Shown in pieces: positions 39,077 to 64,000 of a stretch of DNA of 64,000 nucleotides (its first letter is position 1; each line of letters starts with the position of its first letter). The position numbers and the translations under genes are program-made. The stretch lies in contig JAMPHY010000001.1 of NCBI GenBank assembly GCA_023663185.1, forward strand, positions 314,994-378,993, in the 5' to 3' direction. Below the pieces are notes generated by a model. It was not told where the DNA came from. It did no database searches and saw nothing but the letters and a program-made list of their open reading frames with translations. Source of the stretch: Clostridiales bacterium (GTDB lineage: Bacteria; Bacillota; Clostridia; Lachnospirales; Lachnospiraceae).

Positions 39077-40078
39077 TCACCTGATTTCTATAGGCTTATA
39101 TACCGATGCATCCCCTGTTTCGATAGCCTTTACCAGCAAATCCATCTGTAATGCAATTCCCCGTCGGAAACTCACCGCGTAATCAACATAGGATAAATAT
39201 CTTATTTCTGTCTGCAGTTTTCTTTCCAGTTTGGATAAATATATCTTTAAACCATTTCTGGTCAGAAAACAACCCGGCTCATCCACATCGATTATGAAGT
39301 CTTCCTTATGTATCTCATGACCATTAATCATACTCATAACTGTGGAATCTACAATAACAGCCCGCCATTCCTCCATCATATCGCTTGCAAGCGTAGGGTG
39401 CCTTTCCTTGTCCCTGTGCATAAATCCAAAATAAGGGTGGAGTCCTTTTGATTCAATCTTACTGTAAAGTTCATTCATCAGAATGGAATACCCAAGACTG
39501 AGCATAGAATTAAACTCGTCCCTAGGCGGACGCCTATTTCTCCCATGAAACCGAAAATCTGAATCGATAAGTTCCGCCAACCCATCAAAATATGCCTTTG
39601 CGCCCTGCCCTTCGTACCCTATGATTTCCGGAATGGTTTTACATTGTGCAATTTTTTCCCTGCAGATATGCATCATTTTCAAAGCTTCTTTTACAGATGC
39701 GTTCTCGCTTTTTTCATATCGCTTCAATACGACTGTCTGATTCCTTAATTTAGCCCTGACAATATTTCTGGCAAGCTCTACGGCAAATTCTGTCTCATAT
39801 AGAAAGCATTGTTTTCTCTGTCTTTCAGGGTTGCTATGCCCCGTTGACTGCAGCCTTCCAAAATAAGTTCCGCCTTTTGAAAAGTAAGAAACCTGAATCC
39901 CTCGTTTTAGACATTCTTGTACGCATTGGGTTGTCATCTGCGCGTGTCCCATTATTGTAATGCTCTCAAGCGTTTCAATAGGAACTATTTTCTTCAGTCC
40001 ATCCGCATATTGAACATAACATCTGCTCTCTTCAACTCCAATAAACGCATTGTTTTCATTGACAAACAACAAACTCAT
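39077..40078 (-). CDS. cas1: Cas1 CRISPR integrase
   Basis: 333 residues. The metal-binding catalytic residues are visible: Glu in IGYEGQGAKAYFDGL (about 155), His in LHPYFGFMHRDKERHP (about 222), and the following Asp/Glu in ASDMMEEWRAVIVD. It integrates new spacers at the leader end of the array. The gene starts 20 nt from the leader-distal, degenerate end of the array. No reverse transcriptase fusion is seen. Confidence 0.95.
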   Translation of the reverse strand: MSLLFVNENNAFIGVEESRCYVQYADGLKKIVPIETLESITIMGHAQMTTQCVQECLKRGIQVSYFSKGGTYFGRLQSTGHSNPERQRKQCFLYETEFAVELARNIVRAKLRNQTVVLKRYEKSENASVKEALKMMHICREKIAQCKTIPEIIGYEGQGAKAYFDGLAELIDSDFRFHGRNRRPPRDEFNSMLSLGYSILMNELYSKIESKGLHPYFGFMHRDKERHPTLASDMMEEWRAVIVDSTVMSMINGHEIHKEDFIIDVDEPGCFLTRNGLKIYLSKLERKLQTEIRYLSYVDYAVSFRRGIALQMDLLVKAIETGDASVYKPIEIR

Positions 40079-40099
40079 TTTATCCCTACCTATCTTTTT

Positions 40100-40898
40100 T
40101 TGTTCGTCCCCTATCGGGGTATCTATTATCTAATCGCAGCAAAGTCAGCGCACAATATGATGTCATTCAGTTTCCGTCCCCTACCGGGGTATCTATCATC
40201 AATAAATATGAAGAAAAATGATGCGCTGACGTTGGTGTTTCCGTCCCCTATCGGGGTATCTATTATCTAATCAATTTGAGCGGCAAGCAGGGCAGATATG
40301 CTAAAGAGTTTCCGTCCCCTACCGGGGTATCTATTATCTAATATGAAGAGTGCGGCATTACGAAAGACACACCAGGTTTCCGTCCCCTACCGGGGTATCT
40401 ATTATCTAATGATTAAAAAGGGGGTAACAGCGTAATGGAGAGGGGTTTCCGTCCCCTACCGGGGTATCTATTATCTAATGTTATTATCAACAATCAAACC
40501 GAGTCCGCCAGTCTCCGTTTCCGTCCCCTACCGGGGTATCTATTATCTAATCGACGGTGCGGAACTGTTAGAGAGCGGCAGTGTAAGGTTTCCGTCCCCT
40601 ACCGGGGTATCTATTATCTAATCGGGGATCCATTTAGTAAAGAAGGCTGTTTTAGTTTCCGTCCCCTACCGGGGTATCTATTATCTAATAGGCGAAGTAA
40701 TTCCGATGCTCTTACGGCTGTACTGTTTCCGTCCCCTACCGGGGTATCTATTATCTAATTACACGCGGGGCAAGTAGTCAACTACTTAAAATCGTTTCCG
40801 TCCCCTACCGGGGTATCTATTATCTAATCCCTGAAATTGCCGCTGAAGGTGGCTCAATTAAGCGTTTCCGTCCCCTACCGGGGTATCTATTATCTAAT
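40100..40898 (-). CRISPR. type III-A CRISPR array: 12 repeats of 35 nt, 11 spacers
   Basis: Repeats start at 40100, 40170, 40237, 40308, 40376, 40445, 40517, 40588, 40655, 40725, 40794 and 40864. On the plus strand each begins GTTTCCGTCCCCTACCGGGG and ends TATCTATTATCTAAT. Spacers are 32-37 nt and all differ. The copies at 40100 and 40170 are degenerate (TTGTTCG start; ATCATCAAT end), so 40100 is the old end and the leader lies beyond 40898. The crRNA strand is therefore minus, like the cas genes. There the repeat has a CCCC-GGTA-GGGG hairpin followed by ACGGAAAC, the expected 8-nt 5' handle after Cas6 cutting. Confidence 0.97.
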
Positions 40899-41034
40899 CC
40901 TCTCCCACACACTCCCCTAATCATGCGTCTCCTCAACATCATTTGCGGGGGAAAGAAGTTTTTCTCTGGAGCATTCCGTCTTTTACATGAGAAAATCTCC
41001 TCAACGCCTTGTTCTCCGCGGTGCGTGGCAAAAC
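40899..41034 (-). promoter_or_regulatory. CRISPR leader region
   Basis: 136 bases between the csm5 stop and the first (youngest) repeat. Array polarity places the leader here. It is short and less AT-rich than many leaders, and I see no clear promoter. The array could be read through from csm5. Confidence 0.6.
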
Positions 41035-42162
41035 TCATACCGCTTCTATCTTGTCAATGCTGCACATTCCCATCTGCAACAGTTTTCCTTTATACTTTGT
41101 ACACTTGATAATATGCGGCGACGCTCCATATCGTCGGTCCTTATCATGTCCATGCTCTCTAGGAACTCTCGTCTTTTCAAACACGCGCCTTGTAAGTTCT
41201 ATACCCTCCTGTTTTCCATACATCGGATATACCATTGTCTTGGAGACAAATCCGCACCCGCCGCCACAGAATACATAATTTTCTCCCGGCATGTCCATGC
41301 CACGAAAAGCGGATACGAAATTTTCATAGTAGGCGTTTATAAAAAGCTTTATCGCCGCTTTCAACTGGGCTGCAGACAATTTACAGATGTCTGTGTCCAC
41401 CGTCATTGTAAAGCAAATCTCGGTGTCAGGCTTAATACATTCCCGCAAAATAGGAAGCGCCTTTGCCTCCCCGTCAGGACGTCGGTCAATCTTCTGGCAT
41501 AAGACAAGAGCTTCCCTAGAAAGCGGCTCGCTGTCGCTGACCATCAATCCCTGCAAAACATCGTTTATCGCATCCTGCGGTCTACTTTCCGGTCTATTCA
41601 ATGTCCTGAAAGCAACCGCTTCTATCTCTGTTATATCCTTTTTCAAATAACTCTTCCTGCTGGCGTTACCATTTGCATTCTGCCGCATTCTGCTGTTTTG
41701 TCCCCGATATTTTCCCGGATTCTTTATAACGTCCGCCCCAAGCAATATAGTCCTGAGCATTCCCTTTAAGGAGCTTCCGGGAATATAAGGCAGTCCATAG
41801 GCGTCCTTCATACATTCAAGAATCTGCAGTCTGTTAGCGCCTTTGTCCGCGCTTTTATCCAGAATGGCGTCCCCGCAGTCCAGCCTATACTTGATCAGCC
41901 CTTCCATATCAGCTATATCAATATGCTGTTTTTCCAGCCATTGCGTCAAACTAATATTCCCTTTTCCAAGCAAATATTCTTCAAAGGCTTCCGCTTTATT
42001 CCGCTGCTTTAATGCAGCATAAAGTAACTGCATATCAGGAATACCCGCCTGCTTATTATTTAAAATGAAATATTCCTTTTTTCCGATTTCTTTTCCACTC
42101 CCGATAAACACGGGTCCTATTGTATTCATGACTACTCGATAGCTTTTCAAATATTGGTTCAT
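41035..42162 (-). CDS. csm5: Csm5, RAMP subunit of the Csm effector
   Basis: 375 residues. RAMP protein with the N-terminal TIGPVFIGSGKEIGKKEYF and the Gly-rich loop YIPGSSLKGMLRTILL, typical of Csm5. It caps the crRNA 3' end in the complex and recruits maturation nucleases. The C-terminal half has a charged linker and KTRVPREHGHDKDRRYG. Last csm gene before the array; the start codon is 3 nt after the csm4 stop. Confidence 0.93.
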   Translation of the reverse strand: MNQYLKSYRVVMNTIGPVFIGSGKEIGKKEYFILNNKQAGIPDMQLLYAALKQRNKAEAFEEYLLGKGNISLTQWLEKQHIDIADMEGLIKYRLDCGDAILDKSADKGANRLQILECMKDAYGLPYIPGSSLKGMLRTILLGADVIKNPGKYRGQNSRMRQNANGNASRKSYLKKDITEIEAVAFRTLNRPESRPQDAINDVLQGLMVSDSEPLSREALVLCQKIDRRPDGEAKALPILRECIKPDTEICFTMTVDTDICKLSAAQLKAAIKLFINAYYENFVSAFRGMDMPGENYVFCGGGCGFVSKTMVYPMYGKQEGIELTRRVFEKTRVPREHGHDKDRRYGASPHIIKCTKYKGKLLQMGMCSIDKIEAV

Positions 42163-42165
42163 ATG

Positions 42166-43089
42166 CTACACCTCCACCAACATGGGCTTTGCATAACGAT
42201 ATACCGGATGAGCGCCCCTTTTATCCGATACATCATAGATATCGCCACTGAATCGTTCTGTGAAGCAGGAGCCTGCCTGAAAAACATACAGGTCTTTTTT
42301 CCGCATTTGTTCCGGTCCATAATGCTCTGACGCCACAAACCCACTTCTCTTGCAGAGCAGATATTCCGCTCCCTGCATCATGGTTTCCAGCTCTTCATCT
42401 GTCGGCAGCGAAACAGACAATGACATATATCTTTCGCCTTTCTTTTTCAGTTTTTCACAGAAATTCTCCGGCACTTCACCTTGAAATAAGGTAAACCTGC
42501 CAAGCCCTGACGCCCTTTTGCCGCCGATACCGCTTAACGAGAGATTTTCAAGCAGGTACTCCATCAATTCTAGTTCTTTGTCCGTCTCATATCCAACAAT
42601 AAAATATAGACCGTTTCCGTGCATAAAATAATAGGTGCCAATACGATATGGAGTCGATTCCAATTCTCCCCGTACTGCCGCTGTATTTTTCATTTCAAAA
42701 CGTCCCAGCCCTTCCAGATTCGGAGCATTCATCACATCATACTCACCCTGCAGGTAGACGTCCAGCATATCCATAGGAATATATTTTAATTTCTTATACG
42801 CTTTCTTAATAACGGAATCTCCTCCGTTGTCTGCCGGCTCAATATGTTTCATTGGCTTTGGTATATAATAAGTTCTGTCCATATACGGAAACATATCAGA
42901 GAATGACAGAATCCCGGCACGCGCAGAATGATAAAACTCCTGAAGCGTATTATCGCCGATTTTCAGAGCTTCCTGACACAAAGCGGAAAATAGAGTGTCC
43001 GCACAACAGGTATATTCTCCATCATCGAGATTGCGCTTTCCAAAGTGGACGGCGCTTTGAAATGTAAGTCTGTATAACTTATATTTCAT
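42166..43089 (-). CDS. csm4: Csm4, RAMP subunit binding the crRNA 5' handle
   Basis: 307 residues. LYRLTFQSAVHFGKRNLDDGEYTCCADTLFSALC is the Csm4 N-terminus, and GIGGKRASGLGRF is the C-terminal glycine-rich RAMP loop. Csm4 contacts Cas10 and the 8-nt handle. 2 nt after csm3. Confidence 0.93.
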   Translation of the reverse strand: MKYKLYRLTFQSAVHFGKRNLDDGEYTCCADTLFSALCQEALKIGDNTLQEFYHSARAGILSFSDMFPYMDRTYYIPKPMKHIEPADNGGDSVIKKAYKKLKYIPMDMLDVYLQGEYDVMNAPNLEGLGRFEMKNTAAVRGELESTPYRIGTYYFMHGNGLYFIVGYETDKELELMEYLLENLSLSGIGGKRASGLGRFTLFQGEVPENFCEKLKKKGERYMSLSVSLPTDEELETMMQGAEYLLCKRSGFVASEHYGPEQMRKKDLYVFQAGSCFTERFSGDIYDVSDKRGAHPVYRYAKPMLVEV

Positions 43090-43091
43090 CT

Positions 43092-43763
43092 TTATACCTC
43101 CGCTTCCATTGCCTTTTGCAATACCTCATTGCATTGCGCCAAGAGTTCTTCCGGCACTTCTCCGATTACTGTTTCCGCGTACAAATCATGAAATACCACT
43201 TTTCCATACCCTCTGGAACCGTTTCCGCCCAAGTAGTCGTACTTAAGAAGCCTCAGTCCTTCTGCCAGAATAGAGATATCCTCCACTACCTGACTCTCAT
43301 CCTCCATTTCATAAATCATATCGAGTCCAAACTCAGAACCTCTGACGATTCTCTCAATTTGTCGCGGATTCGCCACTGCCGTCGCCCTATTAATTGTATT
43401 TTCAAATTTGACTTCCGTCATGCTCTGCAGTCCATGTTTCCGCAATTCTTCCTCATTTGTCAGGAACATGTCTGATATCAAAATGCGACTTTGTCTGACA
43501 TGATCCTTTTTCGCGCTGCCAAACAGTCTGGTAAGGCATTCCGCGTCATCATCCGGTTTCCCGACCTTCGTGTTATATTCTTTTGCGAGCAAGGTGCGCA
43601 CTTTCCCTTTTAAAGAGCTTCCCGGTATCATCGGCATACGGGTGCGGGTATCCTTTATTACCGGAGAATCCACCGCTCCTATTGCTGCAAACGCGGCAGA
43701 ACCGCCGATATGCATACCTGTCTTTACTTCTATGATTCCTGTTATCTGTATTTTGGCGTACAT
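43092..43763 (-). CDS. csm3: Csm3, backbone RAMP and target-RNA endonuclease
   Basis: 223 residues. IEVKTGMHIGGSAAFAAIGAVDSPVIKD contains the catalytic Asp (the D of AVDSP, about residue 32) that cuts target RNA every 6 nt. The Gly-rich loop MIPGSSLKGKVRTLLA and GGNGSRGYGKV complete the family marks. Confidence 0.95.
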   Translation of the reverse strand: MYAKIQITGIIEVKTGMHIGGSAAFAAIGAVDSPVIKDTRTRMPMIPGSSLKGKVRTLLAKEYNTKVGKPDDDAECLTRLFGSAKKDHVRQSRILISDMFLTNEEELRKHGLQSMTEVKFENTINRATAVANPRQIERIVRGSEFGLDMIYEMEDESQVVEDISILAEGLRLLKYDYLGGNGSRGYGKVVFHDLYAETVIGEVPEELLAQCNEVLQKAMEAEV

Positions 43764-43775
43764 AAGCTTCCTCCT

Positions 43776-44165
43776 CTAGTCATCTCTTTCCACATGATAT
43801 TTACGAAATGCCACTAATGCTTCCATATATCTGTTAAAAAGGATATAATTCTTTTTACTTGCGTTTATCCTCTTTAACAGGTCAATGATACCTGCCTCAT
43901 TTATCAAAGCTTTCACAGAAGGTTCCCTGCCTGCTTCATATAAGCACCTGACTCTCAAATACTCTATTCTCGCACATATCTCTTCGTTCAGCCCATCTCC
44001 CTGCTGGTTCAGCACTTCATTGTAAATATCCGCGCTCATCGCCAGAAGATTTCGCAGCTTGGACGTTGTTACGATAGGAATATTTCTTCCGCGCTGGTCC
44101 TTTCTGTCCTTCAGCGACAGAATTACCTTCTCCGCCTCATCCACATAATTCTGTTCATTCACCAT
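43776..44165 (-). CDS. csm2: Csm2, small helical subunit
   Basis: 129 residues, all helical and charged. Position between cas10 and csm3 and the conserved TTSKLRNLLAMSADIYNEV fit Csm2, the stacked small subunit lining the target RNA. It overlaps cas10 by 11 nt. Confidence 0.9.
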   Translation of the reverse strand: MVNEQNYVDEAEKVILSLKDRKDQRGRNIPIVTTSKLRNLLAMSADIYNEVLNQQGDGLNEEICARIEYLRVRCLYEAGREPSVKALINEAGIIDLLKRINASKKNYILFNRYMEALVAFRKYHVERDD

Positions 44166-46569
44166 CTTCCGTTTCCTCCTTCTCCCTTGTCAGATATACA
44201 TACAAATTCATTGCCGTCTTTAAATGCCTGCAGTCTGCCTCCGCATTTTCACCCTGATACCATTGGTACATTCTGGTAGAAAATTTCCGATAAGCGTCCT
44301 TTTGCTCCGGTGTGGCGTCCTTATCCGGCTCCAGCCTTGACAGAAGATACACATATCTGGCAAAATTAATCTTATCGCCCCGATTGCGAATCAGTTCCAG
44401 AAGGTTATACATGAAATTCTTCCCTCTTTCGTCTGATGTCTCGAAAAATTCAGAAATATGTCTGTATTTCTCATTCAAAACCTTCTGCTCAAACTCCTGC
44501 CAACTGTATGTACCATCGCTTACGATAATTTTCTTTCCTGCCCCGCCCAAGACCTCATGACTGCTTCCGTCCGGAAACAGTGTAACCGCATTTTTCTCCG
44601 GTAGTGCTTTGGAGCCTTCCTCCATGCCCGCGACTTCGCTGGCTATAGCGCTTATGGGATATCCCGGTGCATAAACGCCGATTCCTGCTGACAATGTAAG
44701 GGTTCCCTGAGTATATTTCTGAAAACTTTCCCGCAGATCCATAGCTATTTCTATAATTTCATTCCATGCCCCCACGATAAACAGGTCATCTCCGCCGGAG
44801 TAGCATATGACCGCATTCCGCTTAGAATGCGTATATTTACCAATCCTATAACAGCCCTCTGACAATATCTTATTTATATGACATTTAAAAAACAGGGATA
44901 ACTGCCTTGACAAAGTCGCTGTTCTGGATAATGTTACATATCTGTTCTGATTTTCGGGATTGGCAAATCCCGACACGAAAGCCTGTCCCAGATTGTCTAC
45001 ATCTGCACGCATGACGCCAATGCGCCGGATTCCCTCGGAAGCGCCAGCATATTCCTCGAAAGTTCCCAACGCGCCATCTACGCCCCTTGCCGCATAATCG
45101 CCAACCCATAGTTTAGCTGCTACGTGTTTTCCCGTGTACATTTCATTTTTACCGTATGCCCGCACAAAGCAGTCATCTCGTTCCATCTTTGACCGAAGCG
45201 ACTCTTTATTGTCGGACGTAAGATAATAGCCTCCCGGCAACGGTAAGGCGTTCTCACTCTCCTGCAAGGTAACGGTAAAAAAACTATCGTTCAAAATATT
45301 TCTTGAAAATCCTTCTATCGCGCTGCATATAGGGCATAAACCGTTCTCGTTTACCTTTGCGATTCTTTTACATACCACGCACTCTCTCGTATAATCTCCC
45401 TGTGTGCCTGCATTCAGCATTTTAATATCCTTTGCGGAATATCTGTGACTCTTTTGCCCGGAGAGCTTTTCACCCAATGTTTTAAAAATCTGTTCATAAC
45501 TGCCCTGGGGATTATTTTTAAGCATATTAGCGCTGCATGCAGCATATCCCCATGCTACATACAAGGATATATAAAATGTATCCAACAACCATTGATTGAG
45601 CTCCTTCATATACTGCTCCACAATCAATATAGTCTTTTCCGTATTTGCAAGCAAAAGATAACAATGCCCGCCGCCGGAATAAATAAGATTAGCGCGCGAT
45701 AAATGTAGCTTCTGCAGCAGACAGTCAATAATATGTTCCATCATGACTTCCAGATAGAAAGAACGTACCCGCAGAGTCCGCAGAGCGTTCTTGCTTGTGA
45801 TAGTATAGATAAAATCCTGTATGCCCGATATATCCATGGAATACAACAGAAACGCCTTTTCTTCATAGAATGCTTTTCCATTTACATAAAGACGCTCTCT
45901 GAAATCTGTCTCTCCCTGCACATCTAGATATTCCATGATACAGCTTGCCACTGCCGCCGTCAGCTTCAAATGGTCATAAAGCGAAATATCCGCCATCTCA
46001 TTTCTAGCTGTTGAGGAAGGTACATAAGAAAGATTTGCTTCCAGCACTTCCAGTAGTGAATCCACATACTCCCGGCTCCATTCCAGCCCGCGAAGATTGT
46101 CTGTCAATCTAACCTTTATCTGTGTATAAAAGGCTTCATCAAAAGCTCTTTTTTCAGATGTGGGATAATTGATACCATCTTTGGGATCCAGAGTCTTCGG
46201 TTCATAATATTTTTCTTCCGTATTCTTATTTAAAATATTAAACACACTCTGCAAAGGCATAGCCTTCTCAAAGCCCGCGTCTTCCGAATCCTTCTGCCTT
46301 CGGTCTGCCGCAGACGCGATATTATCCGCAAGATATACGATATATGCCAAAGCATTATCCTCTATATCGGCCCCTTTCAATGCTTCCGCATGGTGATAGC
46401 GCACACAATTCAGGATATCTGCATCCCATTCGCCTGACTGCACCTCATCCTTTAAATAGTCGTACCCGCTCTGGCTGTGTTTCCGTCCGTCATCTCCCTG
46501 CCTGTATATTACCTTTCCAATATCATGCAGCAATCCACCCAATACCAGTTTTACTTCTCTGTCAGTCAT
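44155..46569 (-). CDS. cas10: Cas10/Csm1, HD nuclease and cyclic-oligoadenylate synthetase
   Basis: 804 residues. N-terminal HD domain GGLLHDIGKVIYRQG...HSQSGYDYL for ssDNA cleavage, a zinc-binding CVVC...CPIC in the middle, and the second Palm domain with CYSGGDDLFIVGAW, the GGDD motif of the cyclase. Both active sites look intact, so the locus should cut DNA and signal to Csm6. ATG 46569 follows GGAGGCGGAG; a GTG at 46581 lies upstream. Confidence 0.95.
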   Translation of the reverse strand: MTDREVKLVLGGLLHDIGKVIYRQGDDGRKHSQSGYDYLKDEVQSGEWDADILNCVRYHHAEALKGADIEDNALAYIVYLADNIASAADRRQKDSEDAGFEKAMPLQSVFNILNKNTEEKYYEPKTLDPKDGINYPTSEKRAFDEAFYTQIKVRLTDNLRGLEWSREYVDSLLEVLEANLSYVPSSTARNEMADISLYDHLKLTAAVASCIMEYLDVQGETDFRERLYVNGKAFYEEKAFLLYSMDISGIQDFIYTITSKNALRTLRVRSFYLEVMMEHIIDCLLQKLHLSRANLIYSGGGHCYLLLANTEKTILIVEQYMKELNQWLLDTFYISLYVAWGYAACSANMLKNNPQGSYEQIFKTLGEKLSGQKSHRYSAKDIKMLNAGTQGDYTRECVVCKRIAKVNENGLCPICSAIEGFSRNILNDSFFTVTLQESENALPLPGGYYLTSDNKESLRSKMERDDCFVRAYGKNEMYTGKHVAAKLWVGDYAARGVDGALGTFEEYAGASEGIRRIGVMRADVDNLGQAFVSGFANPENQNRYVTLSRTATLSRQLSLFFKCHINKILSEGCYRIGKYTHSKRNAVICYSGGDDLFIVGAWNEIIEIAMDLRESFQKYTQGTLTLSAGIGVYAPGYPISAIASEVAGMEEGSKALPEKNAVTLFPDGSSHEVLGGAGKKIIVSDGTYSWQEFEQKVLNEKYRHISEFFETSDERGKNFMYNLLELIRNRGDKINFARYVYLLSRLEPDKDATPEQKDAYRKFSTRMYQWYQGENAEADCRHLKTAMNLYVYLTREKEETEDGE

Positions 46570-47308
46570 CTCCGCCTCCACTCATTTGCAATCCGCCCAT
46601 CCCTATTGCTGTCTTAATCCCCACGCCTGAGTATTCCCCAAATCCAATTAACAATCTGGCATACTTCGCCATGGTAGATGAGCCCGTTACCTTGATACTC
46701 ATCTCTCCTACAAAAGAAGGAATCTTAACGCTCTCCAACGGAAACAAAGCGCTCCTGAGTTTATATCTGATAATTCTGCTATTGTTTACAAGCTGTTCAA
46801 GAGTCTCCTCATCGTACATATCCATGTCCTCTGACGCTGCACTGTATTTATTCATCAAGCTCTGATAAATAAACCTAAGCTCCGGCATATTTATATATGT
46901 TCCGCCGCTCTTAAAGGACGTCGGCGTGAGGAACTTCACATTTATATATCTGTCATAGGTATCAGAATAAAATTCCTCCAAAAGTTTCTTTTGGGGGACT
47001 GTTTTCAGCTCTTTTGCACAGATTTTTACATGTAAATCCTTTTTCTCAATGTAAAAATCCTTAAATGTTTCATTCAAAAAGGGAGTGATAATCTTCTCAT
47101 GTGCTTCTCTTGTCAGAGTATTAATTACCCATACCTTTTCCTTTCCACTTGTAAGATATTGACTATAAGGCTTTAGACCGGAAACATGCAGTTGTTCCGC
47201 GTGATCTCTCTCTAGTCTTTCCATTAGAACGCCTTGCAGATTTGAGGATTGATAGTATCCAAAATCATCTCCATCGGCTTCCAGTTTCATCCTCAGTTGC
47301 GCCAGCAT
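46562..47308 (-). CDS. cas6: Cas6 pre-crRNA endonuclease
   Basis: 248 residues. Two ferredoxin-like domains; the C-terminal Gly-rich loop GFGEYSGVGIKTAIGMGGLQ is diagnostic. It cuts the repeat below the CCCC/GGGG stem. Catalytic residues of Cas6 vary and I cannot assign them. First gene of the operon; AAAAAGGAG precedes ATG 47308 and a TACAAT-like -10 lies about 25 nt further upstream. Confidence 0.92.
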   Translation of the reverse strand: MLAQLRMKLEADGDDFGYYQSSNLQGVLMERLERDHAEQLHVSGLKPYSQYLTSGKEKVWVINTLTREAHEKIITPFLNETFKDFYIEKKDLHVKICAKELKTVPQKKLLEEFYSDTYDRYINVKFLTPTSFKSGGTYINMPELRFIYQSLMNKYSAASEDMDMYDEETLEQLVNNSRIIRYKLRSALFPLESVKIPSFVGEMSIKVTGSSTMAKYARLLIGFGEYSGVGIKTAIGMGGLQMSGGGDD

Positions 47309-54896: not shown

Positions 54897-57800
54897 ATGA
54901 AAACAATCTTTGTGTCAAGTACTTTTACGGATATACAATATGAACGTAACGCCATAAGGGATATTACCGCGCCCCTTCTTAATAAAGAAGCGAAAAAATA
55001 CGGCGAAACGACAGACTTCTGCGAATTGTACCGCGAAATCAGAGAAATCAGCGCAGAGGTCATTGGCGCAGGTGACATTAGCGCAGAGGAAAACCCCATA
55101 AAAGAGTCCGTAGTTTATCCCGATGAAATAGACCGCAGCGAGCCTCTTATGGTGGTGCTCTTAGGTTTCAGCTACTGTCAGATACCTGATTCCGAATCCA
55201 TTAAAACAGTCGCAGACCAAAAGCAGCTTGCACTGGAAGAACTGGAAAGAAGCGTGACCGCACTGGAAATCGAGTACGGTGCTTTTTGTGGCAAGGAAAA
55301 GTTTAATAATACGCTCTTCTATTTTCGAGAGATAGAAGGAACCGCCCTTTCCGATTACATTTCAGAAGACAAAGAGGTTGCCGGCGACAGAGAGTATGAA
55401 GAAAAGCTCCTAACGCTCAAAGACAGGATAAAAAGCATTACTGCGGGAAAAGTAAGGGAGTATACTCTTACATGGAACGGCAGCGGCTTTGACGGCGTTG
55501 ACGCTTTCGCCCTGACGCTTGCGGAGGACATTATAGCTATGCTTATGCCTGAATGGGTAGAAAAGGAGAAACTCACCAGTTTCCAGTGCGAACGAAGAGC
55601 CCACGCTGCATTTATCCGAGAAAAGAACGCTATGTTCAGGGCGAGACAGTCAGAAGCCGAAAAGCTGATAAAAGACGCCCTATCACAGCCCGTTACAATA
55701 ATCAGAGGCATAGCAGGCAGCGGCAAAAGCACGCTCTTTTCATATATGGCGACAGAACTTAAAAATTCCGGCTGGACTATTCTCCCCTTTATTTCAGGGC
55801 TTACTGCAAAAAGCAGTTCCGAAATGGATATCATTGAGAATATTGTTTATTTTATAGAAGAAAAACTGCACCTTGACCATTACATAGACGAAACGGACGC
55901 TAAGACAGGCGAAAGGCAGATACATATTCCTGACGAGTGGGGTGAAAAACTTACCGAGCTGTGTCTTGCATACACAAAAACGGGGGCAAAGCTGCTCATT
56001 ATGATAGATGCCGCAGATAAACTCAGCGGGGAATGGGGAATGCTACGTTTTATACCCACATCTGAATCAGAAGGTATCCATCTTGTAATAACCCGCACAG
56101 CGAATCCCGCTATTCCAGCACGTGAAGGGTGCTATACGCTTATGCAGCTTGACAACGAGGGTAAACAGGTGGTTCTTGGCGGTATTCTTGCAAGGAGCGG
56201 CGGAGAAATCCCTGAATCTATTATAAATGCGATGTTTAAGCCGGAAGTTTCTAACAACCCGCTTTATCTGTCGCTGCTAGTTCAGAGGCTTCTCATGATA
56301 AGCAGGGAAGATTTTGAGGATATCAGAAGCATGGAAGATTCTGAGGATATCAGAAATAGAGGCGGCAATGCGGCGACAATAGAACAATACCAAACTAAGC
56401 TTATTAAAAACCAATGTCCTGACGACATTGACGAAATGAGCGCCGCCCTTTTAAACGAGGCAGGAAAGCAAATTAATGAGAAACTCGTGTCCAAAGTTCT
56501 GCAATACCTTGCCGTATCAAGAAATGGTCTGCGTAGAAAGGATTTTGCCGTATTACTTGAGCGCGAATGGTCGGAAGGCGACTTTTATCATTTTGTAAAC
56601 TATATGCACGACTGTTTCCTATTAAGAAAGGACGGTCGCTATGATTTCACGCACGATGGCGTCAGAACGTGCCTGCGCAGTCAGTGTAAGGATTTAGAGG
56701 GGGTAAACAGAGAGATTCTTGAGTACCTTAAATCCCTGAAGGCAAAGGACTCTGTCAGAATGAAAGAACTCGCATGGCATGCCATCGCGCTTGATGATAA
56801 GGAAGCCTTTATCGAGCATATTATCAAGTATTCCTACTACTCTTATGAACTAAGCAATACGGTCAATGATGTATATGCTCAGTGCCTTGCCGATAAGGGC
56901 GAGTGGATTATTGATGTTCTGAAGGAAACGAAAAAATATGACGCGGGCGAAGAACTATGTCGATTGGCTGATTTCTGTAATGATAAACTGAAAGACGCCT
57001 TCTGGACTTTAGAGGATACAAAGAAGCTGGAAATTAAGCTGCGTATTCTTACCGCCAATATTGATTTTGCGGAACATCTGTATCATAAATTTAAATCCTA
57101 TAGAAGCAGAAGGACTCTTTCTAACAGTTATGAAAACGTTGCCGAAATCTATGAGGGGCTTGACGGTATCGACAACCAGCGACATGTGCTGGAGCTATAT
57201 GCTAAAAGTCTGCCGATTATGGAAGAAATTGTGGAAGAACCAAAAGAACCGAATACCTACGAAAGCAGAATGAGCGGCTTGGATAGACTGCACCTTTTAG
57301 AAAGATATCGTAAGACGGCACAAATGTATGAAGCGCTTGGCGGCGAAGACAATTTAAAACAGGCATTAATACTACATGAAAAGTATCTGAAAATCAGGGA
57401 GCAGCAGGCGCAGGAAAAGAATGAAACTGCCAACAGCTTTCTTTCGATGAGTTATGCTAAGGTTGCCGATATGTATGTGAAGCTTGACGGCGAAGACAAT
57501 CTGCAATGCGCGCTTAAGTTCTACGGCAAGGCTCTATCTATTGATGAACAACTGGCGAAAGAACGGGACTTTACCCAAAAAAACTGGGAGTTTTTCCGCA
57601 ATTATGATAAGATTTTTGATGTCTTTAATAAACTTGGCGGCAAGGATAACCCGCAAAAAACGCTGACTCTGTATGAAAATGAGCTGCAAAACAGGGAAAA
57701 GCAGGCAAAAGAACGCGGTACAATAGTAAGCAAATGGATGCTTTCCCACAGTTATAATGAAGCGGCGCAAAGATATATGAAGCTTGGCGGCAGCGATAAC

Positions 57801-58844
57801 ATACAGCGCGCGCTTGAGTTGTATAATAAGGATTTGGTAATCTATGAACTATTGGCGCAGGAGTTTGGCACCGCGGAAAGCCAAAAAGAGCTTGCCGGCA
57901 GTTATAACCGCGTTGCCGAAATGTATGTGAAGCTTGGCGGCAGCGATAACATACAGCGCGCACTTGAGCTGTATAATAAGGATTTGGCAATCTATGAACA
58001 ACTGGCTAAGGAACTGGATACTATAAAAAGCCAAAAAGAGCTTGCCGACCGTTATTATTGGGTAGCCAAAGACTATGCGAAGCTTGACGGCAGCGACACT
58101 ATGCGGCATGGGCTGGAACTGTATAGTAAAGCTTTTGCTATATATGACGAGTTGGAGAAAGAACTAAGCAGCTCTGATAAAAATGAACTTTCCTTCAATT
58201 ATGATGAGGTTGCCGGAATTTATGAAAAGCTTGGCGGCGAAGACAGCCTGCTGTGCGCGCTTAAACTGTATGAAAAGGCTATATCAATAAGGGAACAACT
58301 TGCAGAGGACATACTCTCCTCTACTAAACGAAAAATGGAGCTTATCCCCGATTATTATAAGGCGGCAAGAATTTATGCGATACTTGGTGGAAACGACAGT
58401 CTGTTACACACGCTTGAATTGTATGAAAAAGCTATGATACTTAGAGAACAACTGGCGAAAGAACTGGATACTGCCAAAAGCAAAGGTGAGCTCTCAGAAA
58501 GCTATCGTAAAGTTGCCGGAATTTATGAGGTGCTTGACAGCGAAGACAATCTGCAACACGCGCTTAAGTTATATGAGAAAGACATTGCGGTCAGAGAAGT
58601 GCTAGTAAAAGAATTCGATACCGCCCAAAACAAGAGGGAGCTTTCCCTTAGTTATCACAGGTCTGCCCGAATTTATGAAAAGCTTGGCGGCAGCGACAAT
58701 CTGCAACTGGCTCTGTCACTGTATGAAAAAAGCCTGCCAATTCAAGAACAACTAGCGAAAGAACCGGGCAGCGCCCAAAATAAAAAGGATCTTTCCATCA
58801 GTTATCTTAAGATTGACAGACTTCGCGCATTACAATCAGTATAA
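54897..58844 (+). CDS. DUF4062 - STAND/NACHT-type NTPase - TPR protein
   Basis: 1315 residues. The start IFVSSTFTDIQYERNAIRD is the DUF4062 domain (about 1-115), known from eukaryotic NWD1-like and bacterial signalling STAND proteins. The NTPase follows: Walker A IIRGIAGSGKSTLFSYM (about 270), Walker B AKLLIMIDAADKL (about 363) and a winged-helix region. From about residue 720 to the end run roughly ten TPR-like units of 55-60 residues with the core YxKLGGxDNLQxALxLYxKxLxIxEQLAKE. STAND proteins with such sensor repeats act as switches, several in phage defence. There is no obvious nuclease effector, so it may act through a partner such as the CHAT protease. Confidence 0.88.
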   Translation: MKTIFVSSTFTDIQYERNAIRDITAPLLNKEAKKYGETTDFCELYREIREISAEVIGAGDISAEENPIKESVVYPDEIDRSEPLMVVLLGFSYCQIPDSESIKTVADQKQLALEELERSVTALEIEYGAFCGKEKFNNTLFYFREIEGTALSDYISEDKEVAGDREYEEKLLTLKDRIKSITAGKVREYTLTWNGSGFDGVDAFALTLAEDIIAMLMPEWVEKEKLTSFQCERRAHAAFIREKNAMFRARQSEAEKLIKDALSQPVTIIRGIAGSGKSTLFSYMATELKNSGWTILPFISGLTAKSSSEMDIIENIVYFIEEKLHLDHYIDETDAKTGERQIHIPDEWGEKLTELCLAYTKTGAKLLIMIDAADKLSGEWGMLRFIPTSESEGIHLVITRTANPAIPAREGCYTLMQLDNEGKQVVLGGILARSGGEIPESIINAMFKPEVSNNPLYLSLLVQRLLMISREDFEDIRSMEDSEDIRNRGGNAATIEQYQTKLIKNQCPDDIDEMSAALLNEAGKQINEKLVSKVLQYLAVSRNGLRRKDFAVLLEREWSEGDFYHFVNYMHDCFLLRKDGRYDFTHDGVRTCLRSQCKDLEGVNREILEYLKSLKAKDSVRMKELAWHAIALDDKEAFIEHIIKYSYYSYELSNTVNDVYAQCLADKGEWIIDVLKETKKYDAGEELCRLADFCNDKLKDAFWTLEDTKKLEIKLRILTANIDFAEHLYHKFKSYRSRRTLSNSYENVAEIYEGLDGIDNQRHVLELYAKSLPIMEEIVEEPKEPNTYESRMSGLDRLHLLERYRKTAQMYEALGGEDNLKQALILHEKYLKIREQQAQEKNETANSFLSMSYAKVADMYVKLDGEDNLQCALKFYGKALSIDEQLAKERDFTQKNWEFFRNYDKIFDVFNKLGGKDNPQKTLTLYENELQNREKQAKERGTIVSKWMLSHSYNEAAQRYMKLGGSDNIQRALELYNKDLVIYELLAQEFGTAESQKELAGSYNRVAEMYVKLGGSDNIQRALELYNKDLAIYEQLAKELDTIKSQKELADRYYWVAKDYAKLDGSDTMRHGLELYSKAFAIYDELEKELSSSDKNELSFNYDEVAGIYEKLGGEDSLLCALKLYEKAISIREQLAEDILSSTKRKMELIPDYYKAARIYAILGGNDSLLHTLELYEKAMILREQLAKELDTAKSKGELSESYRKVAGIYEVLDSEDNLQHALKLYEKDIAVREVLVKEFDTAQNKRELSLSYHRSARIYEKLGGSDNLQLALSLYEKSLPIQEQLAKEPGSAQNKKDLSISYLKIDRLRALQSV

Positions 58845-60060: not shown

Positions 60061-62766
60061 ATGGATAACCGGATTTCATCTCTTATTAACGCTGCTTCGC
60101 TTTCCTACGCCGCAGGTCATCTGGAACAAGCCAGACAGCAGGCGTCGGAAGCGCTTGTGCTGCTGACACTTAAATATCCTTCCTACAATGTTTCCGATAA
60201 TGTTTCTGATAATGTTTCTGATAATATTTCCGGTAATATTTCTGATAGTATTTCTGAGTCAGCAGATTATTCTCTGCGCATGGCTTATCTTAATATAATG
60301 ACGTTGCTGCAATCCATTGCTGCCAGAACGCATGACCTAGACTCCTATGAAAAATATGAAGCCACCGTCAAAGAACTTACACTCCATATGTTCGGTGCGG
60401 ATTCCCTCTCCTATTACGCCGTACATCTGCTAGACGCCTGTGAATGCTATCTGAGTGCGGGAAATATCGTTATAGCGCAGTATTTTCTGGAAGACGCTAT
60501 ACGGATTCTGGAAGAAGAAAACGGAGCCTGTGCATTGACCGCCTTCCTTCACGCTCTTCATCTTGCTAAACTGCATTTCCATATGGAGCAGTATTATGAA
60601 TGTATAAACGAAGGTCTGCGCGCCAATTCATTATGCCTTGCCGAGCCGTTTATTCCGCCTGATGCTTCTGACTTTCTTAAGAACTACGCGGCAGATACCG
60701 TACTGCTCGACGAACTAATCTACTCTAACCTGACGCTGATTGCCTGCGCTTACGGCAAAATCAATAACAGCAAAGAAGGCATTGCGATTTTAGCAGTACT
60801 GCAAGAAAACCCGCCCGAAGACTACTATCTGTGCGCATCTATGGATTTGATTCTGGCGGAGCTCTATACCAGAGAGGGAAAATACGATGAGGCTCGCTCT
60901 CTTTGCAAAAAATATCTTACGCAGGATTTAAAGGACTCTCCTGATATGCTCACCGCCCTAGCGTCGCTTTCCTATACGCTTTCACCTTCTTTTGACTTGC
61001 TTAGTCAATCTCTTTTTACCGCCGAAAATGACGGGGAGCTTCCGGCGTCCCTCTGTTACAGCAGAGACGCGCTGCAAATTTTATTATATAATCATGGTCT
61101 TACTTTAATCGAAAAGGAGCAATTCGATGAAGCGCTGGAACTATATGATAAGCTGGGCGAGAAGGGTATTTCTCTAAGACTGCTGCTTTTGGCTAAAACT
61201 GGCAATTATAAAGCCATATCCGAATATAAGAAAACTGCCGATAATTACTATTACAGACAGATAGACATGCTTTTTCTCTATTACAATGAAAAATATGTAT
61301 ACAATCATCTTTCTATGCTCGAATACCATTTTTCATTCTGTATGGACGCTTATCTGTCATGCTACGAAACGCTTGGCAGTGAAGCAATGACGCCGAAAAG
61401 CATATATGATTTTATGCTGAACACCAAATATATCTCGCTGGAAGCCTCTTACTTAAGCAGGCATTTCATAACTCTGGACGAGCTTAAAAATCGCAAGAGC
61501 GCCGACGCAAAAGACGTCATGCAGCTCATTCCCCATGATACCGCGTTGCTGGAATTTGGCGTTGTCAGAACTTTTTCCACGCAGGACTACTGCGCCTTTA
61601 TGGTAACAGGCAGGGAGATTTCCTGCGTCCGTATTGCAGATTATCTCTCATTAAATGGATTGATTGATGAATGGCACAAGCTTCTTACTGCTTTCGTTCA
61701 TGCCATAAACGCCGATATAGAGCAAATAGTGGAGACAGAAAAAAGGCAGCGCGCACTGGATACGAAACTGCGCCGGATACTCAGCCGCCCTATTAAAGAA
61801 CTACTCTCCGCCCTGCCGGAAGAAATGCAGATTAAGCGTCTTATCATTGCCCCTGCCGGAGCTTTGATACAGTTCCCGTTCAGCAGACTGTCCGTATCCG
61901 CCAGTGGTTATCTGGGAGATGATTATGAAATCACCTATATCAATACGGGCAAAGAACTTCTACTGCAGTCCGATGAAGCATTAATCCTGTCTCCTGACAA
62001 CTTATCATGTGTACCTTCCGAAAAATCATTAAGTGCGCCTTACGGCAAATCATTAAGTGAGCTTTCTGCTGGAGAGTTCCATGAAGATACTATTTTTAGT
62101 AACCCACTAATTATAGGGAATCCTTCCACGACTGCTTTCCCGCCTCTGCCCTATGCCGAGAAAGAAGCTAATATGGTTGCCGAATGCCTTAACACAGTAT
62201 GTTATACCAAAGAAAATGCCGACATTTCCCTGTTTGACTTCCAGACTCATCAATCGCCTTCACTTCTCCATATCGCAGTACATGGCGTCTTTTATCAGGA
62301 AGAAAATAGCGCCTTAAAGGGAGTCGGTCTGCATATGCTCTCTGATATTCCTGACTGGAACAACGCTTTCTTGGTAATGGAAAAAAGCGGTCTGGTTCTT
62401 GCCAATGACACACTGCTCTCCTGCAATCAAATATCCACTATGGAGCTTACTTCCGTCAGGCTCTCCGTTCTTTCCGCCTGTCAGAGCGGGCAGGGACGCT
62501 TCCATGCCTCAGAAGGAATTTACGGCTTAAGACGTGCGCTGAAACTGGCGGGTTGTAAGTCCATCATCGCTTCCCTCTGGCAGATTGATGACCGCTCCGG
62601 ATATTACTTTATGCGGTTTTTATATGAAAATCTGGTGAAGACGCCGGGAAACCCAAGACTTGCTTTTTCTCTTGCTGTAGAATCGCTGCGCAGTTATGAA
62701 GAAAATAATACCCGCCCGTTTGCAGAGCCATATTATTGGGCGGGGTATATTTTTATACAAGAATAG
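60061..62766 (+). CDS. TPR-CHAT caspase-like protease
   Basis: 901 residues. The first 500 are helical TPR-like repeats (HLEQARQQASEALVLL, EGKYDEARSLCKKYL, KEQFDEALELYDKL). The C-terminal CHAT domain has the catalytic His in LLHIAVHGVF (about residue 739) and Cys in VLSACQSGQG (about 807), followed by EGIYGLRRALKLAGCKSIIASLWQIDD, all standard. CHAT proteases act as effectors, for example cutting gasdermins or working with Csm/Cas7-11. No gasdermin is seen here. Residues about 42-65 are a 4-residue tandem repeat (NVSD/NISG) coded by 12-bp units, a likely variable linker. Confidence 0.9.
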   Translation: MDNRISSLINAASLSYAAGHLEQARQQASEALVLLTLKYPSYNVSDNVSDNVSDNISGNISDSISESADYSLRMAYLNIMTLLQSIAARTHDLDSYEKYEATVKELTLHMFGADSLSYYAVHLLDACECYLSAGNIVIAQYFLEDAIRILEEENGACALTAFLHALHLAKLHFHMEQYYECINEGLRANSLCLAEPFIPPDASDFLKNYAADTVLLDELIYSNLTLIACAYGKINNSKEGIAILAVLQENPPEDYYLCASMDLILAELYTREGKYDEARSLCKKYLTQDLKDSPDMLTALASLSYTLSPSFDLLSQSLFTAENDGELPASLCYSRDALQILLYNHGLTLIEKEQFDEALELYDKLGEKGISLRLLLLAKTGNYKAISEYKKTADNYYYRQIDMLFLYYNEKYVYNHLSMLEYHFSFCMDAYLSCYETLGSEAMTPKSIYDFMLNTKYISLEASYLSRHFITLDELKNRKSADAKDVMQLIPHDTALLEFGVVRTFSTQDYCAFMVTGREISCVRIADYLSLNGLIDEWHKLLTAFVHAINADIEQIVETEKRQRALDTKLRRILSRPIKELLSALPEEMQIKRLIIAPAGALIQFPFSRLSVSASGYLGDDYEITYINTGKELLLQSDEALILSPDNLSCVPSEKSLSAPYGKSLSELSAGEFHEDTIFSNPLIIGNPSTTAFPPLPYAEKEANMVAECLNTVCYTKENADISLFDFQTHQSPSLLHIAVHGVFYQEENSALKGVGLHMLSDIPDWNNAFLVMEKSGLVLANDTLLSCNQISTMELTSVRLSVLSACQSGQGRFHASEGIYGLRRALKLAGCKSIIASLWQIDDRSGYYFMRFLYENLVKTPGNPRLAFSLAVESLRSYEENNTRPFAEPYYWAGYIFIQE

Positions 62767-62772
62767 TTTGCT

Positions 62773-63066
62773 CTATAATATCTTCCAGAGTCCCGTTTTA
62801 TTTGCTCCAATTCTATCGATAAAACCATTTTTCTTTAAATAAGAAATATTCTTCTGAATCGTCGTTTTCCCTACACCTAATTTTTCTGCCAACTGCGGCT
62901 GCGTTATACCAGGATTATAATGTATTTCTTCCATAATGCGAATACTTACTTCACTCAATCCTCCTCTTGATTTATCTATCACTTTATCTACCACTTTATC
63001 TATCGCTTTATCTGTCACCTCACTATCAATCTTGTTATATTTCTTAAAAAATCCAAAAAAATACAC
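62773..63066 (-). CDS. winged-helix protein, maybe the tail of an AlbA_2/ATP-binding regulator
   Basis: 97 residues. The C-terminal 60 are a winged helix (IRIMEEIHYNPGITQPQLAEKLGVGKTTIQKNISYLKKNGFIDRIG...GLWKIL). The N-terminal part is a repeat, DKAIDKVVDKVIDK, coded by 12-bp units. This end is typical of AlbA_2-type transcriptional regulators, whose ATP-binding N-terminus is missing. The GTG start has no good ribosome binding site, so it may be a remnant. It is divergent from the peptide gene at 63193. Confidence 0.55.
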   Translation of the reverse strand: MYFFGFFKKYNKIDSEVTDKAIDKVVDKVIDKSRGGLSEVSIRIMEEIHYNPGITQPQLAEKLGVGKTTIQKNISYLKKNGFIDRIGANKTGLWKIL

Positions 63067-63133: not shown

Positions 63134-63162
63134 TTGTAATTATATTCATATATTGATATAAT
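63134..63162 (+). promoter_or_regulatory. sigma-A promoter of the peptide/radical SAM unit
   Basis: TTGTAA (63134-63139), 17 nt, TATAAT (63157-63162). It is 30 nt before the peptide start codon and the only good promoter in the gap. Confidence 0.75.
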
Positions 63163-63192
63163 AATATAACACCAAAAAAGGAGGCACAAATT

Positions 63193-63345
63193 ATGGCTAA
63201 CACACAAGAGTTCAACAACGGTATAGACTTTATTCAAAGTCTGCAAAATTCTCAGGATTATGGTAATGAAAACGCTTGGGAAGTTGATTCATGGCCCAAT
63301 TATGAAGAATGGCACGATTACTGGAATGATTACAGTGGCGCATAA
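63193..63345 (+). CDS. putative RiPP precursor peptide, aromatic-rich (triceptide-like)
   Basis: 50 residues, very good AAAGGAGG site. The N-half is a leader-like acidic/amide region (MANTQEFNNGIDFIQSLQNS), and the C-half is packed with aromatics: W29, W34, Y37, W40, Y43, W44, Y47. Three tripeptides fit the aromatic-X-Asn/Asp pattern used by three-residue cyclophane-forming radical SAM enzymes: W34-P-N36, W40-H-D42 and W44-N-D46. There is no Cys, so it is not a thioether peptide. The last 20 nt overlap the radical SAM gene. This is an inference from layout and composition. Confidence 0.75.
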   Translation: MANTQEFNNGIDFIQSLQNSQDYGNENAWEVDSWPNYEEWHDYWNDYSGA

Positions 63346-64000
63346 TCCCAACTTCATAACCCCAATCATCAAAATAGTCGAGAATTGCAATTTTACCTGC
63401 GAATATTGCAGATATGCAAATCATCCGCCTAAAGACAGCTCTATCATGTCGGTAGAATTGTGCAAAAAAATCATTAGGGAAGTATGTACATACAATCTCT
63501 CTAAAGGGATAAGCATTACTTCCCTTATTTTTCATGGCGGAGAACCGCTCCTTTGGGGCAGGGACAGATTTAACGAAATATTGTTGTATGAACATGAATT
63601 GAAAAAGGAATTTCCCCATCTGGAAATCAAAAACGGAATGCAGACTAACGCTTTTCTGATTAATGATGATTGGATTGAGTTATTTCACAAATTCAAGATG
63701 AGCGTCGGGGTAAGCATTGACGGCTTTGCCGATATCAACTCCCATTTTGGTAAAGCCGGCAAAGAAACTTCAACGCAGACTGTTTTGGATAACATTCATC
63801 TTTTGCAAAAGCATAACATTAAGTGCGGAATCTTAAGTGTGATTACGGAAAAGCATTTCCCATACGCAAAAGAATATTTTGATTTTTTACAGAAAGAAAG
63901 AATAGACAACGCAGGCTTCTGCTACTGCTACAATCCTTTAGACGACTATTCATTAAATACGGAAGCGCTTGGACTATTTATGTGCGAATGCTTTGATATA
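63326..64000 (+). CDS. radical SAM peptide maturase (partial, runs off the window)
   Basis: 225 codons are present, open to the window end. The Fe-S motif Cx3Cx2C is in IVENCNFTCEYCRYAN (about residues 18-24), the GGEP-type SAM motif in LIFHGGEPLLWG (about 66), and VGVSIDGFADINSHFG follows, as in SPASM-family maturases. The expected C-terminal SPASM clusters are outside the window. ATG 63326 overlaps the peptide gene by 20 nt, so translation is coupled; a GTG at 63335 is possible. The enzyme should crosslink the peptide upstream, probably by forming aromatic-to-beta-carbon bonds. Confidence 0.85.
   Translation, partial: MITVAHNPNFITPIIKIVENCNFTCEYCRYANHPPKDSSIMSVELCKKIIREVCTYNLSKGISITSLIFHGGEPLLWGRDRFNEILLYEHELKKEFPHLEIKNGMQTNAFLINDDWIELFHKFKMSVGVSIDGFADINSHFGKAGKETSTQTVLDNIHLLQKHNIKCGILSVITEKHFPYAKEYFDFLQKERIDNAGFCYCYNPLDDYSLNTEALGLFMCECFDI

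Follow-up and report, generated by a model that had tools for sequence, protein, structure and literature searches.

A 50-residue Trp/Tyr-rich peptide and its adjoining radical SAM/SPASM enzyme as a candidate triceptide-like RiPP pair with a counterpart in Butyrivibrio

At the far end of the window, by which we mean the whole 64,000-nucleotide stretch of DNA analysed here (G000:C11:314994-378993, from a genome of 3.83 Mb in 54 contigs), a short open reading frame adjoins a radical SAM gene, which raises the question of whether the two encode the precursor and the maturase of a RiPP and, if so, which modification the enzyme would install. A sequence-only reading of this DNA had described a 50-residue, Trp/Tyr-rich peptide with W-P-N, W-H-D, and W-N-D in its C-terminal half beside the radical SAM gene, and the coordinates and letters bear this out: the ORF at 63193-63345 (+) translates to MANTQEFNNGIDFIQSLQNSQDYGNENAWEVDSWPNYEEWHDYWNDYSGA (50 aa), with the three tripeptides at W34, W40, and W44. 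The features of the locus are given below, where L002 denotes the contig locus around the pair and "Butyrivibrio" refers to the homologous pair at locus L003 of a Butyrivibrio MAG.

62773 to 63066, minus strand: divergent winged-helix protein of 97 aa with a GTG start (domain scan)
63134 to 63162, plus strand: promoter-like TTGTAA-17-TATAAT (L002:628-656; sequence match)
63179 to 63184, plus strand: AGGAGG, ribosome-binding site of the peptide gene (read from the sequence)
63193 to 63345, plus strand: precursor-like peptide gene of 50 codons (ORF translation)
Within 63193 to 63345, plus strand: putative leader, residues 1 to ~28, in which the pattern NGxDFIxSLQNSxDYxNxNA is kept
Within 63193 to 63345, plus strand: putative C-terminal core, Trp/Tyr-rich, WEVDSWPNYEEWHDYWNDYSGA
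63259 to 63267, plus strand: Y23-G24-N25, aromatic-X-Asn; Y-D-N in Butyrivibrio (alignment)
63292 to 63300, plus strand: W34-P35-N36, aromatic-X-Asn; invariant (alignment)
63301 to 63309, plus strand: Y37-E38-E39, invariant triad sharing the register of W34 and W40 (alignment)
63310 to 63318, plus strand: W40-H41-D42, aromatic-X-Asp; Y-H-D in Butyrivibrio (alignment)
63322 to 63330, plus strand: W44-N45-D46, aromatic-X-Asp; W-Y-N in Butyrivibrio (alignment)
63326 to 64000, plus strand, running 480 nt beyond the window: radical SAM/SPASM maturase gene (L002:820-1974; ORF, contig)

The enzyme gene ends at window-equivalent position 64480 and encodes 384 aa from its likeliest start. We place that start at the ATG at 63326, 20 nt ahead of the 3′ end of the peptide gene (63345), because the likeness to the Butyrivibrio enzyme sets in near there; the open frame extends upstream of it and contains ATGs from 63260 on. 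The 20-nt overlap claimed earlier holds at this start, and because the frame is open upstream with other ATGs, its exact extent is an estimate. The AGGAGG element is spaced 8 nt from the peptide ATG. A single promoter for both genes had likewise been proposed; the TTGTAA-17-TATAAT match is present, but such matches are no commoner in the stretch that contains it than in shuffles (7 seen vs. a shuffle mean of 7.8), so a shared promoter is plausible only. No terminator-like sites were found 3′ of the enzyme gene, and an Rfam search of the L002 and L003 loci returned nothing. The divergent winged-helix protein is a possible regulator or remnant; none like it was seen directly beside the Butyrivibrio pair in ORF lists inspected by eye.

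The evidence that the small ORF is a gene, and that it belongs with the enzyme, comes mainly from a second genome. A scan of genome contigs with the enzyme matched seven stretches by pattern, one of which was a relative, in the Butyrivibrio MAG, 72% identical to the window enzyme. Directly upstream of it is a peptide ORF of 48 codons (L003:5856-6002), MTYANENVNGVDFILSLQNSNDYDNTNAWEVDSWPNYEEYHDSWYNAY, which is 67% identical to the window peptide and is the one homologue with conserved aromatic-X-N/D sites that was found when such peptides were sought. Gene order is alike in both members, with peptide and enzyme genes overlapping by 20 nt in the window and 11 nt in Butyrivibrio at the likeliest enzyme starts. 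Among the 44 aligned peptide codons, 12 are identical, 19 differ synonymously, and 13 differ nonsynonymously, and the 48 nucleotide differences fall 10/8/30 on codon positions 1/2/3 (dN 0.24; dS not estimable), a pattern like that of the enzyme gene (79/46/188 over 379 codons). Residues 9-42 are identical at 28 of 34 positions, and NAWEVDSWPNYEE is invariant in both peptides despite synonymous codon change. Since the differences are concentrated at third codon positions, translation of the small ORF and selection on its protein are very probable.

From this we infer that the peptide and enzyme form a precursor/maturase pair, as had been suggested: the two are conserved together, the peptide evolves under constraint on its amino acid sequence, its sites survive substitution, the enzyme carries a SPASM domain, and in Butyrivibrio both lie within one islet. 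Homologues of the enzyme standing beside a different, unconserved peptide had been named as evidence against the pairing; the single close homologue stands beside a conserved one. The pair has a lower G+C content than its surroundings in both genomes, 0.373 vs. 0.429 for the whole window and 0.341 vs. 0.422 for the 19-kb stretch around the Butyrivibrio pair. The window peptide matched no model in Pfam, NCBIfam, or PHROG, the Butyrivibrio peptide none in NCBIfam or PHROGs.

The aromatic-X-Asn/Asp sites of the peptide were set against chance expectation. The window peptide has five [WY]-x-[ND] motifs, among them a further aromatic-X-Asn match at Y43-W-N45, compared with a mean of 2.0 in letter shuffles (P = 0.02), and it is the only one of 496 window ORFs of 30-80 codons with at least four. 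The Butyrivibrio peptide also has five, compared with a shuffle mean of 2.6 (P = 0.06), and two when only Trp is counted (P = 0.19, letter shuffles). The motif count is thus modest evidence, for which composition accounts in part; as shuffled letters alone give some matches, the case rests on conservation rather than on the count. Conservation in Butyrivibrio does raise these sites above chance, judging from the alignment: W-P-N is unchanged, the Y23 triad changes its middle residue and W40 becomes Tyr, each keeping its N/D, and the aromatic residue with N/D two places on is kept at W44 (W-N-D vs. W-Y-N) despite a two-residue length change that the aligner placed there. W34, Y37, and W40 follow one another at a spacing of three residues, in register.

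The neighbourhood of the Butyrivibrio pair could be delimited by comparison with three of the 79 genomes of its genus that were searched (G430, G472, and G426). The islet, L003:5736-7288 (1,553 bp, measured on G472), holds the peptide gene, the enzyme gene, and ~0.1 kb of a repeat common in these genomes. In the close relatives G430 and G472, the flanks are joined directly without the pair at 89-92% identity, and in the more distant G426 (74-78%) they are separated by ~2.2 kb that includes a repeat copy; no enzyme match was found in the G426 genome. TGATAA occurs at both islet ends, and G472, unlike G430, retains a stretch that continues the right end with one base different, which together fit loss of the pair in the relatives by recombination between two short repeats. 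Many Butyrivibrio genomes carry, at 82-92% identity, a segment of ~0.15 kb that spans the right end of the islet (L003:7205-7358) and by its translation resembles the 3′ part of a dehydrogenase gene. A 275-aa ORF 3′ of the pair, membrane-protein-like by eye, is outside the islet, in the flank common to the relatives.

Extending the sequence past 64000, where a SPASM domain and a transporter or protease had been looked for, yielded the SPASM domain; inspection of the ORF lists by eye showed no transporter, protease, or further tailoring gene beside the pair. By the same means, a sulfatase gene was noticed neither in L002 (19.9 kb) nor in L038 (19.0 kb). On the opposite strand 3′ of the window pair are a DUF3800 gene and then large unrelated ORFs. 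The DUF3800 gene (L002:2278-3010, minus strand) is split over two frames and corresponds to one open frame of 243 aa in congener G806 (L031). Between it and the enzyme gene, the intergenic stretch L002:2048-2217 has four copies, in two pairs, of a 16-17-nt sequence containing GGTTACACC. Further along, L002:6316-9006 (minus strand) encodes an 896-aa protein of many near-identical repeats of ~36 residues, presumably Sel1-like. Upstream in the window are type III CRISPR-Cas genes (39077-47308, minus strand), with Cas1, two RAMP proteins among those scanned, Cas6, and a Cas10 with an HD domain and Csm1 domain B, followed by a DUF4062/STAND-NTPase-like protein of 1315 aa (54897-58844, plus strand) and a TPR-CHAT protein of 901 aa (60061-62766, plus strand). 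Measured from the Cas6 side of the CRISPR-Cas genes, the last two genes start at distances of ~7.6 and ~12.8 kb, and no PADLOC model matched either protein at E 0.001.

Further members were sought in overlapping samples of whole genomes, most searches scoring only 4 to 8 candidates per genome. The 397 genomes of the family (E 1e-40) gave eight matches, the enzyme itself and seven at 28-33% identity; the 392 genomes of the order and 240 of the class (both E 1e-48) gave the enzyme itself only, and the 398 of the phylum (E 1e-45) added one SPASM protein (L036), upstream of which no such peptide was noticed. One match each was returned by the 79 genomes of the Butyrivibrio genus (E 1e-60) and by 329 genomes of Butyrivibrio's family (E 1e-48). 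A DNA search with L002:1-3100, which might miss a copy as diverged as that of Butyrivibrio, gave matches in 4 of 77 genomes of the window's genus; over the peptide and enzyme genes only the source genome matched, apart from matches of 29-45 bases, and two other congeners matched the DUF3800 or CHAT parts. Plasmid and phage records held no enzyme match of at least 60% identity, plasmids no match to the peptide at E up to 1, and viral contigs neither a relative of the enzyme nor the exact core DNA pattern. A wider profile drew 80 diverged radical SAM loci from viral contigs, used as alignment material only.

Viral contigs gave two matches to the peptide: that in locus L016, FAWEVDSWPN inside a 374-aa ORF that looks like a phage structural gene, was set aside as chance, and L017 has the same match. 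Weak second matches in the source and Butyrivibrio genomes (E 0.14 and 0.21), which lie within long frames, were also set aside as chance. The pair therefore looks rare, with one other genome among those searched; as scans with exact short patterns reach close relatives only, the family may be larger than these two members. The titles and abstract openings listed in the literature searches do not describe the peptide family, and this type of modified peptide looks rare and as yet undescribed.

The enzyme was then placed among radical SAM proteins. It scores above the gathering thresholds of the Pfam models Radical_SAM (57.0 bits) and SPASM (35.0 bits) and has a CxxxCxxC motif (Cys 21, 25, and 28), the sequence FHGGEPLLWG, and, in the SPASM region, eight Cys. 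None of the NCBIfam matches listed (25 of 41) reaches its cut-off, and the same is true of the Butyrivibrio enzyme. The top profile among these is the anaerobic sulfatase maturase TIGR03942 (192.9 bits for the window enzyme and 203.1 for that of Butyrivibrio vs. a cut-off of 349.45), with a second sulfatase-maturase model at 128.5 vs. 441. Profiles of cyclophane-forming enzymes score 131 vs. 310 (GrrM/OscB), 123 vs. 445 (YhhB), 110 vs. 425 (AmcB), 104 vs. 450 (XyeB), and 99 vs. 370 bits (FxsB); such sub-cut-off scores bar membership in the named GrrM, XyeB, YhhB, FxsB, and AmcB families and do not bar their chemistry. The best solved relatives are the sulfatase maturases 4k36/4k37 (E 1e-32), and next the radical SAM domain of ChlB (9gm3, E 3e-22). 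PADLOC gave weak viperin matches only, and a structure model built from two sequences had a mean pLDDT of 44.6, with the SPASM part unusable.

A tree of 20 rows gives the two members a clade to themselves with a long stem. It lies outside XyeB, YhhB, and HaaB and also outside a 13-row clade made up of three annotated sulfatase maturases and the ten further rows grouping with these. In a 17-row tree that left out GrrM, G361, and the E. faecium row, the pair, again outside the sulfatase-maturase clade, stands beside the XyeB/YhhB/HaaB rows with weak support (70/46; long branches); placing it among the sulfatase-maturase-like rows is not rejected (p-AU 0.385). The cysteines set the two members apart, with 23 in the window enzyme and 24 in that of Butyrivibrio vs. 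8 to 18 in the 18 other rows. Cys 255, 261, 276, 318, 321, 327, 331, and 348 are common to both members and the three annotated sulfatase maturases; we take these eight columns to be auxiliary-cluster ligands. The XyeB, YhhB, HaaB, and GrrM rows do not have Cys at 255, 261, 276, and 331. Both members also have ten extra Cys (46, 54, 199, 220, 222, 253, 274, 325, 329, and 355), at positions where no more than 2 of the 18 other rows have Cys; four of the ten precede one of the eight by two residues (253/255, 274/276, 325/327, and 329/331). That the extra Cys might hold an additional iron-sulfur cluster is a guess.

Taken together, we think it reasonably likely that this is a minimal two-gene, triceptide-like RiPP unit whose maturase makes several three-residue cyclophanes; the bond type, the cross-link sites, and the processing described here are those we infer for it. 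The first gene would yield the 50-residue precursor, and the overlap would probably couple translation of the peptide and enzyme genes. The radical SAM/SPASM enzyme would bind the conserved N-terminal part, NGxDFIxSLQNS, and cross-link the C-terminal core, the border between the two lying putatively at about residue 28. Most likely, the enzyme would take the C-beta hydrogen from the Asn or Asp in third position and bond that carbon to the aromatic ring two residues earlier, forming cyclophanes on Y23-x-N25, W34-P-N36, [W/Y]40-H-D42, and W44-x-[D/N]46 with a loss of 2 Da each; Y37-E-E39 is a possible further site. The leader would then be removed and the product exported by enzymes encoded elsewhere, or the product would stay in the cell. 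Weighing against this reading, Pro-centred triads such as W-P-N are not known from characterised examples; Glu-ended triads likewise have no known precedent. Also against it are the share of the motif count that composition explains, the small number of known members (two), the enzyme scores far below the family cut-offs, the weakly supported tree position, and the neighbourhood, in which no transporter, protease, or further tailoring gene was seen. It is rather unlikely, in our estimate, that the pair represents a new RiPP family in the stronger sense of a lineage of its own, standing between the sulfatase maturases and the enzymes that form three-residue cyclophanes, with an extra iron-sulfur centre from some of the ten Cys and a series of four to five cyclophanes on one short peptide (Y-x-N, W-P-N, Y-E-E, W/Y-H-D, and W-x-N/D).

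Several other products were considered and rejected from the peptides themselves. Cys, Lys, and Arg are absent from both, so thioether products, which need Cys, and Lys-Trp products, which need Lys, do not fit. Tyr-Gly is the motif of spliceases, and Y-G is present in the window peptide and not conserved in Butyrivibrio.

A genuine RiPP pair with a different radical SAM modification is possible, if on balance unlikely: larger Aro-X-X-Asn rings, aromatic ether or C-N bonds of the darobactin/dynobactin type, or oxidation of backbone or side chains. The DynA profile (NF041298) is second among the NCBIfam matches listed (148.1 vs. 450 bits), the enzyme forms a deep lineage of its own with ten extra Cys, and Aro-X-X-Asn rings were proposed for another lone-peptide family (PMC9062424). 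The peptides speak for the shorter ring: Asn is absent three places after the conserved aromatic residues, and the positions kept under substitution are the Asn/Asp two places on. A conserved Asp three places after W29 leaves room for one larger ring.

Very improbable is a peptide-derived redox cofactor of PQQ or mycofactocin type, in which the cross-link would be an intermediate and no peptide would be secreted. It could explain why no transporter is seen next to the pair, the window peptide has an E-xxx-Y pattern from E39 to Y43, and ORFs that by eye resemble a glycerol kinase and FAD-dependent oxidoreductases begin ~3 to 5 kb downstream of the Butyrivibrio pair. However, residue 43 is Ser in Butyrivibrio and the pattern is not conserved, the NCBIfam matches listed (25 of 41) include no profile named for PqqE or MftC, and the glycerol-type genes are outside the islet that carries the pair.

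That the enzyme is an anaerobic sulfatase maturase or acts on another protein, the small ORF being a translated leader or upstream ORF, is scarcely credible, for although its top profile is TIGR03942, all eight sulfatase-maturase Cys columns are present, and the tree leaves that clade unrejected, the profile score is far below cut-off (193 vs. 349), FHGGEPL stands where most such rows have QGGEPTL (a Bacteroides sulfatase maturase has WHGGETL), the peptide keeps its amino acids while its codons change synonymously, and the ORFs between the islet borders in Butyrivibrio include no sulfatase gene.

The triceptide-like reading, in which the enzyme makes three-residue cyclophanes, would describe a compact and readily testable system of two genes, a Cys-free peptide, and dense candidate sites, and a RiPP unit gained or lost as little beyond one peptide and one enzyme. 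Peptides cross-linked by radical SAM enzymes include the antibiotics darobactin and dynobactin. An enzyme with the full Cys set of the sulfatase maturases may also help to show how these and cyclophane-forming enzymes are related.

Among known systems, the pair resembles the triceptides (XncB/XyeB, OscB/GrrM, YhhB, HaaB/FxsB, and YxdB) in two ways: a short precursor is encoded immediately ahead of a radical SAM/SPASM enzyme, and aromatic-X-X3 triads stand near the C-terminus. Of four loci compared whose maturase carries a cyclophane-forming annotation, three (xye, haa, and yhh) have an annotated cyclophane precursor immediately ahead of it; in grrM, the remaining one, this place is taken by a protein without a name that contains W-x-N repeats. 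The three-residue spacing of W34, Y37, and W40 recurs in YhhA (HNR-HNR) and the grrM neighbour (WSN-WNN-WSN); it does not hold throughout XyeA and is not found in HaaA. HGGEPL of the window enzyme is as in the XyeB, YhhB, and HaaB rows. In a review (PMC11002830), the three-residue cross-links reported are Trp-Asn and Trp-Asp (OscB), Trp-Asn (XncB), Tyr-Asp (YxdB), and also Phe-Asn, so the Trp-Asn, Trp-Asp, and Tyr-Asp pairs of the present peptides have triceptide precedents. Unlike XyeB, YhhB, HaaB, and GrrM, the enzyme has the full eight SPASM-region Cys and the ten extra, and unlike triceptide loci, the window pair was not seen to have a transporter, oxygenase, or other tailoring gene as a neighbour. 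The enzyme is like the sulfatase-maturating enzymes (TIGR03942; PDB 4k36-4k39) in its top profile among those listed, its best solved relative, and the eight Cys, and differs from them in its sub-cut-off score, a neighbourhood in which a conserved small peptide and, by eye, no sulfatase gene was seen, HGGEPL, and the further Cys. The precursors of dynobactin and darobactin contain Trp. The likeness to their maturases DynA and DarE lies in the enzyme profile, with DynA second among the matches listed, and the scores set the enzyme apart from both (148 of 450 and 100 of 650 bits). The peptide is also like clusters 19, 27, and 63 of the IPR023867 survey, which, according to PMC9062424, join a radical SAM enzyme to precursors with Aro-Asn, Aro-X-Asn, or Aro-X-X-Asn motifs; the likeness, an Aro-X-Asn-type precursor, is by description, and identity with one of these clusters is possible. 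According to the same paper, SPASM RiPP clusters of two or three genes are common. Against this background, there is a fair probability that the pair works like a triceptide system while standing outside every named maturase family by the cut-offs tested.
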